The notes under the pieces: model-generated
What the model was told of the DNA's origin: nothing
The model's database searches: none
What the model saw: only the letters and a program-made list of their open reading frames with translations
From: Pseudomonadota bacterium
Lineage (GTDB): Bacteria > Desulfobacterota > Desulfobulbia > Desulfobulbales > SURF-16
Assembly (NCBI GenBank): GCA_018816555.1
Contig: JAHIVT010000086.1
Coordinates: forward strand, 1-64,000
Length of the DNA stretch: 64,000 bases
Reading direction: 5' to 3'
Position numbers and translations under genes: made by a program
Shown here: one piece after another, positions 18,909-50,779 of the stretch
Position numbering within the stretch: position 1 is the first letter of the stretch
Layout: each line of letters starts with the position of its first letter

Positions 18909-18985
18909 TACAGATAAAGCCAAACTCACTGTAAGGTGAGGACGGAAAGCCACGGAGCTTTCAAGCGAGCCGGGTTGCCTGATTT
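18909..18985 (+). promoter_or_regulatory. Cyclic-di-GMP-I (GEMM-I) riboswitch aptamer
   Basis: ACAGATAAAGCCAAACTCACTGTAAGGTGAGGACGGAAAGCCACGGAGCTTTCAAGCGAGCCGGGTTGCCTGAT: GEMM-I hallmarks (GGACG(C/G)AAAGCC core, tetraloop-receptor-like GGGTTGCC). Confidence 0.9.
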
Positions 18986-45180: not shown

Positions 45181-45860
45181 GAATTGTTTTTGTCGGAGCA
45201 GGCGAGGTGAGCATTGGCACCGCCAAGGCACTGATCAGTAAGGGGCACGAGGTGGTCATCATCGAGACCGACAAGGTGAAGATCAGCGAGCTGTCCTCTC
45301 AGCTGGATTGCAGTTTTTTACAGGGGGATGGCAGCAGGCCGGACATTCTGCGGGAGGTAAATCCCGAACAGACAGACGTACTGGTCTGCCTGTCCAACAG
45401 CGAACAGGCAAATGTCATCGCCAGTCTGGTGGGACGTTCTCTCGGTTTCAAACGGGTGGTGACAAGTATTGCCGATCCACAGTTTGAGAGCATCTGTCTG
45501 GAACTGGGGCTGAAGGATACCATTATTCCTTCCCGCACCATCAGCCGCCATTTGGAGGACATGATCAGCGGCGTGGAGAACCTCGAATTGTCAGTGGTCA
45601 TCAAGGATGAGGCCAGGTTTTTCACCCTGATTGCCAGAGAAGAGGATGCGGTGACCGCCAGGGAATTGAAACTGCCGGCGGAGGCCAAGGTCATCTGTTA
45701 TTATCGTGATGACAAGTTTTCCCATGCCGACGAGGAAACGAAATTCCGCAAGGGGGATGAACTGATCATATTGACGCACAGCAAAAATATTCCCGCCTTG
45801 CAGGAACGCTGGCAGGCAAAACCCATGGACAAGACCGGGGCTGACTCAGCAGATCAGTAG
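45177..45860 (+). CDS. trkA: TrkA-type potassium uptake regulatory protein (RCK_N/RCK_C)
   Basis: MRIVFVGAGEVSIGTAKALISKGHEVVIIETDKVKI Rossmann fold; ATGA overlap with trkH. Confidence 0.94.
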   Translation: MRIVFVGAGEVSIGTAKALISKGHEVVIIETDKVKISELSSQLDCSFLQGDGSRPDILREVNPEQTDVLVCLSNSEQANVIASLVGRSLGFKRVVTSIADPQFESICLELGLKDTIIPSRTISRHLEDMISGVENLELSVVIKDEARFFTLIAREEDAVTARELKLPAEAKVICYYRDDKFSHADEETKFRKGDELIILTHSKNIPALQERWQAKPMDKTGADSADQ

Positions 45861-46153
45861 CAGGCCGGAGTAGGCGGTCAGCCTGTATGGCGTTGTTACC
45901 CGTCCGGACTGTGCGGGCGTGACCGCTCATCTTCATTAAGTTTTCTCTGAAAGGCTACCTTATAAAATCAGGCATCTGGTTTGAGGACGAGAAACGGAAA
46001 AAATAATTTCTTTCATTAGTAGTAGCCTTAAATTGCTGCATGCAGAAGGATTTTTGAGATTAGATGTGGCGAGATTAAGTCGCAGCCGACTAATGTCCTC
46101 TCAACAGTTTGTCAAAATTTCCGGCACCAACTCTAAATCGACACCTTCCAGTT

Positions 46154-48394
46154 TCATGAACATGAATTCTCTTCGATGTGTAGTTTTTCGTTCATATTTC
46201 TTTCCTGCAATATCTTCCATACTTCACCGTTCTCAACTATTTCAATAAAATGCTGAACTGTAAAACCACAAGGAAACAGGTCGTCTTCTGGAAAGTTCTT
46301 CTCTAGCAACAAATTACCACTCAGTAGTTGTCGTTCATTCCTCAAAATTACAACCAGTCCTTCTAAAGAAACCTTCAGATATCCATCGACAATTTCCTGA
46401 TCATATTCAATCGAAGTGTCCACAATCCATGCATGAATTTTCACATTTTTTTCCACAGATGATAACCGTAAGTTTGAGAGTAAAGTCTCATCACTTTCAA
46501 TTGCATGCCGAACAGCAATTTGTTTACGATGTAGCTGCTGGGCTGCCTTTCGTAAAGTGGTCGTTCTATGAATCCAGGCCTCCTGCCTTGTCTTCCTCAA
46601 ATATGTTGATTTTACTTCTAAAATAAAAAGATGATTACCCTGGTAGCAAATCAGATCTACCTCCCCTGGATCAAAATCATCAATCACTTCTGGTTGATAT
46701 GCCTGTATAACGGCAAACCCTCTACTCCTGAATAAATCACCTAGTCGTGATTCAATACGATGGGTCTCATCCTTACGACCTTTTCGTCTGCATCCTATCC
46801 TTCGTAAATTATTTACCGCAGCGGTCAAGTTGTTCTGAGAGGCCATTAGCCACGGCAACTGAAATCCATATCTCCCCAGTTGAATGATCGGTTGCTCATT
46901 CAATTCAGGTGTCGGCATATTGGGAACTCTGGTTAGATTAACCTTCAGCTCTAGAAGATCATTTGTCCAGAACTCCAAAATTGCTTTTGCTGCATTGATA
47001 TCACCCTCTGGATATCGTTCCGAAACCGTCCAAGACTTTATACGTTCAACCTTCTTCGATGGTTCTGTCCAGGTTAAAGGGAAACGGTTTTCTCCTGTAG
47101 CAATACCTTCCATCATTAAATGGGATAACGCTGCAATCCAGTTACCTGATTCCTGCAAATTCTCCTGAAACTTCGCAATATATGATATGTTGAAAAATGC
47201 CGTCATGAGTTCGAGAGAGTGTATCGCTTTAAACAGATCAACCTGTGTACCATTAGGCAAGGAAATCTCCGATTCTAGCCCAAATACTTCACCCAACTGA
47301 AGATACACCTGGCATGCCTTGATATAGGCAAAACGATTAAACTCATCGTTTTCTGGCAACCCAAACTGCTGATTGGACATATCTGACTGTGAGTATTCGA
47401 GCACGGCCCTGTTGAACCAATAACCGTGAAGTGCAGATAGTTTCCTGCCGTTGAAATCCCAATCTGATTCTGCCGGAATGTCAATCGGGTAAATGGTTAG
47501 GTGATTTCCATCAAATCGATATCGGTAATCGTCGTCAAAACAAAATTCATAGATTGTTCCATGTAAGAAATCATTCTTTTTCACTACAGACGATATTAGC
47601 TTGCTGAATTGCTGCAATATTTCAAAACATCGTGATGGTGGCCTTTCGCCTGGTAATAACAGCGGCATCAGGTGCTGTTTCAGAGACTTCGCTAAAAATC
47701 GCTCATTTAGTCGTAGATCGTTCTCTGGCCTGCTTTTGAGCTTCCATATGAGAAGTTCACCCAATGCGTCCCAAACGCTTTGATGGTGTGTATCCCAATC
47801 TTCGTTAACGTGATGTAAATCGGATCGATTGGGCACTAAATTCTGAAAAGTGAACAAGCTCCCGTATAGCAGATACTCAAATATTGTCAACTCATCCAGT
47901 TTCTTTTGGAGATCAAAAATAAGATTGTTGTGCTGATGCAGTTCCTTACAGAGTAGCTGGCAAACTTTTATGAACTGAAGAAAATCAGAATTCCTATCGT
48001 TGGCTATCGAAAGAATACCTGTCCATGGCTGCGAATCTGGTTGAAGGAAAACTTGGGAATATCGTATCCCACGTTTAAGCGTCTCTGGTTCTGTCTCAAG
48101 TAAGCGCTGGAATAATTTTTCATTTGCTAAGCCCAGATGCAGCGAACGGCCGAGTGCAAATGAAATGACATCAGACGAATAATTGGTTTCAGTTACTGTT
48201 TCCCAGAAGGAGCATTCCCATAATGCAGCGGTTCGAACCTGTTGAGTATAGCCACTTTTTACAGGCCTGCCATCGAGGTAAAAGTGAGCGCAGGCTTCGG
48301 CAGCCAGTTTTTGGGAGCCAGTTGCCTTGAGATTAACTTGAAAAAACTTCTCATACGCCTGTCTGCACTGCTCAACCGTAGTAACAGAGGTCAT
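46154..48394 (-). CDS. Large uncharacterised protein with C-terminal PD-(D/E)XK-like nuclease motif
   Basis: 746 aa; FDPGEVDLICYQGNHLFILEVKSTYLRKTRQEAWIHRTTTLRKAAQQLHRKQIAVRHAIE: acidic residue then E-V-K with downstream helix, as in NERD/restriction-like nucleases; AT-rich island. Confidence 0.75.
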   Translation of the reverse strand: MTSVTTVEQCRQAYEKFFQVNLKATGSQKLAAEACAHFYLDGRPVKSGYTQQVRTAALWECSFWETVTETNYSSDVISFALGRSLHLGLANEKLFQRLLETEPETLKRGIRYSQVFLQPDSQPWTGILSIANDRNSDFLQFIKVCQLLCKELHQHNNLIFDLQKKLDELTIFEYLLYGSLFTFQNLVPNRSDLHHVNEDWDTHHQSVWDALGELLIWKLKSRPENDLRLNERFLAKSLKQHLMPLLLPGERPPSRCFEILQQFSKLISSVVKKNDFLHGTIYEFCFDDDYRYRFDGNHLTIYPIDIPAESDWDFNGRKLSALHGYWFNRAVLEYSQSDMSNQQFGLPENDEFNRFAYIKACQVYLQLGEVFGLESEISLPNGTQVDLFKAIHSLELMTAFFNISYIAKFQENLQESGNWIAALSHLMMEGIATGENRFPLTWTEPSKKVERIKSWTVSERYPEGDINAAKAILEFWTNDLLELKVNLTRVPNMPTPELNEQPIIQLGRYGFQLPWLMASQNNLTAAVNNLRRIGCRRKGRKDETHRIESRLGDLFRSRGFAVIQAYQPEVIDDFDPGEVDLICYQGNHLFILEVKSTYLRKTRQEAWIHRTTTLRKAAQQLHRKQIAVRHAIESDETLLSNLRLSSVEKNVKIHAWIVDTSIEYDQEIVDGYLKVSLEGLVVILRNERQLLSGNLLLEKNFPEDDLFPCGFTVQHFIEIVENGEVWKILQERNMNEKLHIEENSCS

Positions 48395-48815
48395 TAAAAT
48401 TGATTTTGCAATGGATTATGGAACGCCAACTCTGCCCCCCAAGATTTCAGAAATTCGAAAAAGTAACATTCGTGGTTAATAGAGCATAAGTATATCACTG
48501 GAGATTATTATGTCCTTTCCTTTCTTGCGTAAGCACTAAAATTGAAACTATTCCTGATGATCTTCGGAAAGGCTGGCGAGAGGCAGGCACGCCAATGATT
48601 CCAAGTCGGCGATGAACAGTAGGCATGTAAACCTGAGGGTAGTTTGATATTTTAAGATGTTCGATGGGGTAATCTTAAGAGATAATCGCGGTGCTGACCG
48701 GCGGCGAAGCCGCCAGGAACGACCTGCATCGCCAGCAGCCCACCCGAACTTGCCGCGTCAACGCCGCCGCGCTTCTTGCCGTCTGTGAATGCAATTGTTA
48801 GTTTTTTTCTTTTTG

Positions 48816-49295
48816 TTATAATAACTTATCATCTACGTAAGATCTAAAAGAAGAAGGGTGGAAATGCTTTACTTCTTCCCATCGGCTTCGGACAAAAGGT
48901 AGAGAAAATAAATCAGCTGCATCTTTAGCGAAATTTTCGAAATTAATATTTTCAATCATTGAATTTTTATAGTCGAGAAAAATCCTTAATGTATGATTGA
49001 TTAGCATTGTGGCTAGCATTTGTTGCCTAGCCTCTTCTTTGTCCATATTGACACTGGACGAAAAAACTTTTAGCAATTCATCGTTTTTAATAATTTCGAG
49101 GTATAGATCACGGTGAGCATTAATTATTGAATGTTGTATCGAGCTAGAGCTTATTAAAGATTGTTTTTTTAGCTCAAGTTGCATAAGCTCGACAGTCCTT
49201 TTAGTGGTAGACCATAATAGGAATGTGCCAAAAGTGTAAACTGCCGTACATATAGCAATAAAAACTGTACTTATCTCACTTGCATTCACTGCCAA
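48816..49295 (-). CDS. Small membrane-anchored protein, DUF6082-like by recall
   Basis: N-terminal TM (VFIAICTAVYTFGTFLLWSTT) then helical domain SIQHSIINAHRDLYLEIIKNDELLKVF...TMLINHTLRIFLDYKN...LFSLPFVRSRWEEVK; overlaps next gene by 20 nt. Confidence 0.6.
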   Translation of the reverse strand: MAVNASEISTVFIAICTAVYTFGTFLLWSTTKRTVELMQLELKKQSLISSSSIQHSIINAHRDLYLEIIKNDELLKVFSSSVNMDKEEARQQMLATMLINHTLRIFLDYKNSMIENINFENFAKDAADLFSLPFVRSRWEEVKHFHPSSFRSYVDDKLL

Positions 49296-49863
49296 GCCCC
49301 CATATTTCTGTTTCTCTTATTGGCGTTGACAATGAAATAGTTTCTTCTTTTAATTTTACATAGCTTTCAATTAAGCTGTCTGGCACTTTATTGATACCTA
49401 AAAATGTCCCTATGAAATCATACTCAAGCAAGTAACATTCTTGGTCGTCAAAGAGCCAATAATCTTTCAAAATAGGTACACTAGTTTTAAATGAAGGAAG
49501 TGTGTTAGTTATTATTACGGAAATATCTTCACCTGCATTTTGACTAGCATGATACCCCCATGCAACCTCATATTTTAAATATGTTGAGAAAGGCTTTCTG
49601 GCCAACCTTACTCTTTTCATTTTTGCCTCTCTCTCGCAAGCCTCATTGATTATCCCAACCCAATCTTCGTTAGCATTCAGTGGAGGAGGCTCGCCTTTTA
49701 AAAATTTCTGATATTCCTCTAACTCACCGGATACATTATATATGTCAAGCATTTCTAGTCTGAATGCATTATTTGAAAATTTAGAAAAGCAATTAAAAAA
49801 ACTGGTAATATCTACAGGTTTAAGACTCTTGAAAATTTCAATTGGCTCCATACCTAATCCCAT
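49276..49863 (-). CDS. DUF6879-like protein by recall
   Basis: FRLEMLDIYNVSGELEEYQKFLKGEPPPLNANEDWVGIINEACEREAKMKRVRLARKPFSTYLKYEVAWGYHASQNAGEDISVI...DYWLFDDQECYLLEYDFIGTFLG. Confidence 0.7.
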   Translation of the reverse strand: MGLGMEPIEIFKSLKPVDITSFFNCFSKFSNNAFRLEMLDIYNVSGELEEYQKFLKGEPPPLNANEDWVGIINEACEREAKMKRVRLARKPFSTYLKYEVAWGYHASQNAGEDISVIITNTLPSFKTSVPILKDYWLFDDQECYLLEYDFIGTFLGINKVPDSLIESYVKLKEETISLSTPIRETEIWGLGSECK

Positions 49864-49925
49864 ATCTATGGCTTTGCAAAAAACGACAAGGGGGCAGATT
49901 TAGGTTGCCCCCTTGTCCCTGTTGC

Positions 49926-50156
49926 TTATTTCATATTCTGAATCAAGTTTTTCAGCAATTCTTCTGTAACCTCAACAACCGTTTCATTTTCTGGAGGGTT
50001 AATGGTTTCTGTGATATTGCTGTCAACAATGACACCCTGGACAAAAAAACGACCGTCTTTACTTTTGTAGATCGTGGGGCATATTCCACCTTTACATATT
50101 CTTGGGCCACCACTATTGTTATAAGCGATCACTTCCAATTCAATTTTTGATTTCAT
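49926..50156 (-). CDS. 76-aa protein upstream of the DUF6879-like gene
   Basis: MKSKIELEVIAYNNSGGPRICKGGICPTIYKSKDGRFFVQGVIVDSNITETINPPENETVVEVTEELLKNLIQNMK; GGAGGC RBS; two Cys. Confidence 0.7.
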   Translation of the reverse strand: MKSKIELEVIAYNNSGGPRICKGGICPTIYKSKDGRFFVQGVIVDSNITETINPPENETVVEVTEELLKNLIQNMK

Positions 50157-50419
50157 TATGCCTCCTATATTTTATGTTTCTGTGTAGCAGGTCAATTTGA
50201 CCCATGTTTCTTTTTTAGAACTCACGTCCCGAGTTGAGCGGCGCGCCACCTATATTATTATCTAGCGCGAGATAATATCAAACCATCACTGAACATCCAA
50301 TTCCGGCTACACCCCCCCCAAAAAAGCACTCCCCAAATCGTGTCATTTGGCAATATCGGGACAATGTTTTGGTATTATTACCTATCCTGACAATCTTTAC
50401 AAAATGATGGAGCATATGC

Positions 50420-50524
50420 AAATATGGCAAATTGTCGCGGCTATTTATGAAATACACAAATCGGGAGATTAGAATTGGAAATCTAATGCATTGAATGGAA
50501 AAGGGAATTTAAGATGTTTCCTGA
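50420..50524 (-). repeat. ~105-bp element (copy B) homologous to 18765..18867
   Basis: See copy A; lies upstream of the three-gene cassette on the same strand. Confidence 0.65.
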
Positions 50525-50664
50525 AAAGGTCTTGGCAAGCTGTCAGCTGGATAGTTTCCGAAATTATGTATAACCTCTGAATGCCCTGCCACTTCGGCTT
50601 AGCAAGCTGTCCATTTCATCTTGTCCTCCTGCGTGGAATTAAGCATAACGTGTCGCTGTTGAGA

Positions 50665-50704
50665 TTTAAGCATAAAATGGCAAAACCATTGGTTTATGCT
50701 TAAA
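50665..50704. repeat. Inverted repeat TTTAAGCATAAA ... TTTATGCTTAAA
   Basis: Perfect 12-bp arms plus inner ATGG/CCAT; a third TTAAGCATAA lies at 50639-50648. Confidence 0.7.
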
Positions 50705-50779
50705 CCCACAGCATAGGGAGCATTATTGTTTTTTTCGCGATAAAGTAATCGGGCCAGAGAGCAATTTTTGAAGATGCCT

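Follow-up and report, generated by a model that had tools for sequence, protein, structure and literature searches.

A small-protein–DUF6879 pair with a membrane-anchored DUF6082-like third gene in a Desulfobacterota genome: a possible mobile sensor module with an exchangeable output

Genes for a small Cys-containing protein and for a DUF6879 protein recur as a conserved pair, and the third gene that joins them varies. It encodes an XRE-DUF5753 regulator in most actinobacteria. The cassette described here belongs to a rarer class, in which the third gene encodes a membrane-anchored protein of the DUF6082 type. It lies on the minus strand of a contig from a member of the Desulfobacterota (JAHIVT010000086.1), of which positions 1 to 64,000 were analysed; we refer to this whole 64,000-nt stretch as the window. 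The features discussed are the following, with the basis of each in brackets.

45861–50730, no strand: variable AT-rich island that contains the cassette plus an unrelated NERD gene (GC profile; congener alignment)
48816–49295, minus strand: gene 3, DUF6082-like protein, helical and membrane-anchored, 159 aa from TTG (Pfam PF19560; BLASTP; hydropathy)
49276–49863, minus strand: gene 2, DUF6879 protein, 195 aa (Pfam PF21806; AF2; Foldseek)
49885–49917, minus strand: terminator-like hairpin, GACAAGGGGGCA / TGCCCCCTTGTC, then GTTTTTT on the minus strand (direct reading; RNA fold)
49926–50156, minus strand: gene 1, small Cys-containing protein, 76 aa (ORF; leave-out HMM; AF2)

The three proteins were assigned to families by profile searches. 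An earlier note on this DNA, made from the sequence without database searches, had placed the 195-aa product of gene 2 in DUF6879, and a strong HMM match was found: PF21806 aligned to residues 22–184 with E = 5.9e-33 (114.1 bits, cut-off 23.9). A DUF6879 profile built without the window protein or its closest relative recovered it among the 1539 ORFs with E = 2.4e-43. Its true start may be an internal ATG at 49851. The 76-aa product of gene 1, which has a GGAGG ribosome site upstream, had been likened to small actinobacterial proteins that sit beside DUF6879. A leave-out HMM of 64 relatives agreed with this, placing it at the top of the 1539 ORFs (E = 2.9e-14). The consensus of this small-protein family is C.GG.CP..Y.T+.G...VQG....E.VVEI...LL, with P27, G41 and E58 invariant and C26 and V61 nearly so. 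No family for the 76-aa protein was found in Pfam, PADLOC, NCBIfam or PHROGs. AF2 predicted a small alpha-beta fold for it (pLDDT 84.6), and a fold search of the PDB gave no match. At four actinobacterial loci (L005, L003, L058 and L103) the small proteins have about 105–120 aa and resemble two copies of the small domain in tandem.

Gene 3 encodes a protein that is DUF6082-like but not a member of DUF6082. The resemblance named in the earlier note was seen against PF19560 (E = 5.3e-6), while the score of 26.5 bits fell just short of the cut-off of 26.7. A DUF6082 profile built without the window protein and its counterpart in G027, the other genome of the host phylum that holds the three families, found gene 3 weakly (6e-4 among 1539 ORFs) and missed the G027 third protein; BLASTP between the two gave 4e-11. 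No match was returned when the third protein was searched against plasmids by tblastn. Its hydropathy profile has one N-terminal hydrophobic stretch, at residues 8–26, which supports the membrane anchor that had been described. The reported overlap of 20 nt with gene 2 holds if translation starts at the TTG; a GTG six nt further on, at 49289, has a GGGGG at a better spacing, and a start there would shorten the protein to 157 aa and the overlap to 14 nt.

The three families share a narrow distribution in the host phylum. The Pfam model of DUF6879 matched 2 of 395 phylum genomes, the window genome and G027, which belongs to another family; within the host class it matched only the window's own genome (1 of 258). 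Separate profiles for the small and third proteins matched these two genomes of the 395 and no others. Both profiles include the window and G027 sequences, so that matches in these two genomes arise by construction whereas the absence elsewhere does not. If the families were independent, the probability that all three fall by chance in just these two of the 395 genomes would be about 2e-10. G027 also has the gene order of the window: a 101-aa small protein, a DUF6879 protein (E = 7.7e-29) and a DUF6082-like protein that scores 23.4 bits against PF19560, below the cut-off of 26.7.

In actinobacteria the usual order is the small gene, DUF6879 and then an XRE-DUF5753 regulator. In the window, as at most DUF6879 loci, the small gene lies directly upstream of DUF6879 on the same strand. 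We counted neighbours within 1.5 kb of 144 DUF6879 ORFs from the fetched loci: a small gene was present for 123, an XRE-DUF5753-like gene for 123 and both for 111, figures that describe this sample, which was found mostly via DUF6879. The window thus shares the first two genes and their order with this actinobacterial set, which has no published name, but its third gene encodes a membrane-anchored DUF6082-like protein instead of a DNA-binding regulator, and its host lies outside the Actinobacteria. No XRE-DUF5753 (HTH-DUF5753, Scr1-type) ORF is present beside the window genes. At one locus, L095:7806-8926, an ATP-binding ORF follows the small–DUF6879 pair and there is no XRE regulator; this is a possible third type of output.

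The trio is otherwise found in soil actinobacteria. DUF6082-led searches turned up operons with the same three families, in the same order as in the window, in Actinomadura and Sphaerisporangium (four loci: L133, L134, L136 and L137). The actinobacterial link drawn in the earlier note is supported, and so is its view of the trio as a set, since the genes co-occur both in G027 and in these two genera. The Actinomadura and Sphaerisporangium proteins differ from those of the window in that their DUF6879 belongs to another clade, which includes the G027 protein, and in that their DUF6082 has at least two transmembrane stretches where gene 3 has one. DUF6082 was present in 6 of 247 actinobacterial genomes and in 4 of 40 DUF6879 genomes. 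A small gene lay near 11 of 15 DUF6082-type ORFs, with DUF6879 there too in five cases (G027 and the four actinobacterial loci). As the small gene accompanies DUF6879, DUF6082 or the two together, the small protein is the shared element.

In the DUF6879 tree the window protein forms a long, deep branch with at most 34% identity to any relative, the nearest being a Nanoarchaeia protein. Given this depth, no donor was identified, and the window cassette was not copied recently from any of the actinobacterial cassettes sampled. The window protein groups with the regulator-linked majority, apart from the other DUF6082-linked proteins, which means that its third gene may have joined the pair in a separate event. 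DUF6879 also occurs in Nanoarchaeia-type genomes (L070, L093 and L114), where it has no small gene.

What kind of protein is DUF6879? The AF2 model had a pLDDT of 93.4 and a pTM of 0.88; plasmid-collection sequences were left out of the alignment rows used for structure prediction. The best PDB match to this model in Foldseek was PLD3 (8v07, E = 7.5e-6, TM about 0.5), and the other matches, poxvirus F13, NucT, Zucchini and the HKD-less FAM83B, all have the PLD fold. A further PLD-fold match was TrmB (2f5t, E = 1e-3), a regulator of which the matched domain binds sugar. DUF6879 is therefore predicted to have a phospholipase-D-like fold, similar to the HKD-less forms represented by FAM83 (DUF1669) and the TrmB domain. 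The HKD motif HxK(x)4D was found in none of the 97 DUF6879 alignment rows. In contrast to its fold, the sequence of DUF6879 has no detected similarity to HKD enzymes: profile comparison with HKD domains, PLDc_2 included, was not significant. We dropped the sequence-level link to PLDc_2, and the proposed relation to PLD is accordingly one of fold. Over the 97 diverse sequences E37 and R84 were invariant, and Y42, P91, Y95, G111, E112, D134, W136, D139 and G152 were nearly invariant.

The cassette stands out from its surroundings, as had been noticed, with a GC content of 0.353 against 0.546 and 0.539 in the flanks. Congener alignments stop at 45841 (G683) and, from the right, at 50730 (G680), and in G683 a different gene lies between the orthologues of the two neighbours, the TrkA-type gene on the left and the sensor gene on the right. 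The difference between 35% and 54% GC, together with the lack of the island in a congener, makes horizontal acquisition of the cassette well supported. The G027 cassette adjoins a phage-type integrase, an HTH-S24 (CI-type) repressor and TrwB/TraG coupling proteins, and so probably lies in an integrative conjugative element. These observations fit the earlier suggestion of a horizontally moved unit. DUF6879 was found on 50 actinobacterial plasmids and 44 viral contigs. A search of phage records for DUF6879 found none, and viral scans with the window protein alone, or with the window and G027 proteins as a pair, gave no match.

The island also contains a nuclease-like NERD gene (46154–48394, minus strand, 746 aa), which matched the PADLOC model 'viperin-associated NERD' with E = 1.5e-25. 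Relatives of its product with 35–39% identity are found on plasmids of Aeromonas, Vibrio and Pseudomonas, one of them beside HigB toxin and FRG-domain genes. Since it occurs on these proteobacterial plasmids without the trio, we rejected it as a member of the cassette. Two interspersed repeats lie nearby. One, at 50254–50524, is non-coding; seven or more other partial copies occur in the genome, several of which share one edge. The other, at about 48612–48716, lies just downstream of the cassette, and contig C175, where the first repeat is also present, has a copy of it (L176:4146-4225) immediately downstream of a TIR-domain gene. These repeats were considered as integron attC sites, but no attC-like ends were seen by eye. 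Elsewhere the window carries a c-di-GMP-I-GGC riboswitch (18910–18983, plus strand, 63.1 bits).

The trio had been called tightly spaced. This is so for genes 2 and 3, which overlap, but genes 1 and 2 are separated by 62 nt that contain the terminator-like hairpin. It is GC-rich, with a perfect 12-bp stem followed by a T run, and folds as RNA at −28.7 kcal/mol (z = −4.86); a consensus scan places its stem on the plus strand. No second copy of it is present in the genome. Nor was it seen at the other loci, where the genes are 2 nt apart (G027) or usually overlap (actinobacteria). The hairpin should terminate or attenuate transcription, and this would separate the dose of gene 1 from that of genes 2 and 3.

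How might the three proteins work together? The exchange of third genes speaks for the small protein and DUF6879 as the core and the third gene as the output. An analogy comes from the XRE-DUF5753/DUF397 pairs of Streptomyces (Scr1/Scr2, WhiJ/BldB), a regulator with a small partner and of the same XRE-DUF5753 type as is found beside DUF6879 (PMC6262351, PMC10364602, PMC10294661). These are regulators, not toxin-antitoxin pairs (PMC10364602), and WhiJ9 is an activator in S. venezuelae (PMC10294661). The window cassette differs from them in having no XRE gene, and a profile comparison of its small protein with 11 DUF397 sequences gave no support for homology (hhalign probability 1.3). By this analogy, the core may be a sensor or modulator. 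DUF6879, as an HKD-less PLD-like protein, would sense by binding a ligand or partner and would not be a hydrolase. The small protein would bind DUF6879 and set its state, and the third protein would relay the output: to DNA where it is an XRE-DUF5753 regulator, as is common, and to the inner membrane in the window cassette. With the hairpin in place, more small protein would be made than DUF6879 and membrane protein, and the pair would stay capped until a signal shifted the balance. We put forward this reading, a mobile sensor module with an exchangeable output that is membrane-anchored in the window cassette, as a tentative one, plausible but short of probable. We are slightly less confident of a wider proposal, in which an undescribed mobile, modular signalling or defence system has an HKD-less PLD-like protein and a small Cys protein as its sensing core and XRE-DUF5753, membrane DUF6082 and possibly an ATPase as its outputs, and has been carried from actinobacteria to other phyla on plasmids, in viruses and in integrative elements.

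Two rival explanations, each of which we consider unlikely, are kept in view of the hairpin, with its expected effect on gene dose, and of the mobility of the setting. The membrane protein, with DUF6879, might inhibit growth and be neutralised by the small protein, made in excess owing to the hairpin. Such a toxin-immunity unit would account for a small gene that comes first with a terminator-like hairpin right after it, a membrane-anchored last gene and a mobile setting. However, no cassette protein matched a toxin family, the hairpin lacks conservation, and most relatives have a transcription regulator as their third gene. Overexpression of the analogous XRE-DUF397 pairs, which had long been catalogued as toxin-antitoxin systems, was not toxic (PMC10364602). 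To much the same degree, DUF6879 might instead sense phage infection and the DUF6082-like protein act at the membrane. A defence role would suit the variable AT-rich island, the adjoining NERD gene with its PADLOC match, the recurrence of the repeats in another genome island with a TIR gene, and the integrative element of G027. Yet PADLOC 2.0 matched none of the three proteins, and at the related loci its one match was to the HTH portion of the XRE regulator; the NERD gene, moreover, travels without the cassette.

Two further explanations are less likely again. Catalysis at a new active site on the PLD scaffold (E37, R84, E112, D134, D139) would produce the conservation seen over the 97 sequences, including that of Y42, Y95 and W136. 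That pattern would also suit ligand binding, and the two residues of HKD that carry out the chemistry in the PLD fold, His and Lys, are absent; an active enzyme is thus rather improbable. It is very improbable that three unrelated genes are neighbours by accident, even though the hairpin splits gene 1 from gene 2 and DUF6082 often occurs without DUF6879: the order recurs both in actinobacteria and in G027, a distant genome of the same phylum, and the joint restriction to two phylum genomes is hard to obtain by chance.

In the literature searched we found no mention of DUF6879 or DUF6082. The parts of the cassette are known, as domains of unknown function, whereas the small-protein family, the lack of HKD and the way in which the genes are combined seem not to have been described. 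We regard the window cassette, whose third gene would provide a membrane output, as the membrane-output form of the actinobacterial pair, outside its usual hosts. The regulator type found beside DUF6879, XRE-DUF5753, controls development and antibiotic production in Streptomyces. A self-contained pair with DUF6082 in an unrelated background shows that the unit can do without actinobacterial development, and the cassette would offer a minimal version suited to a Gram-negative laboratory host. The predicted HKD-less PLD fold provides a first structural hypothesis for DUF6879.
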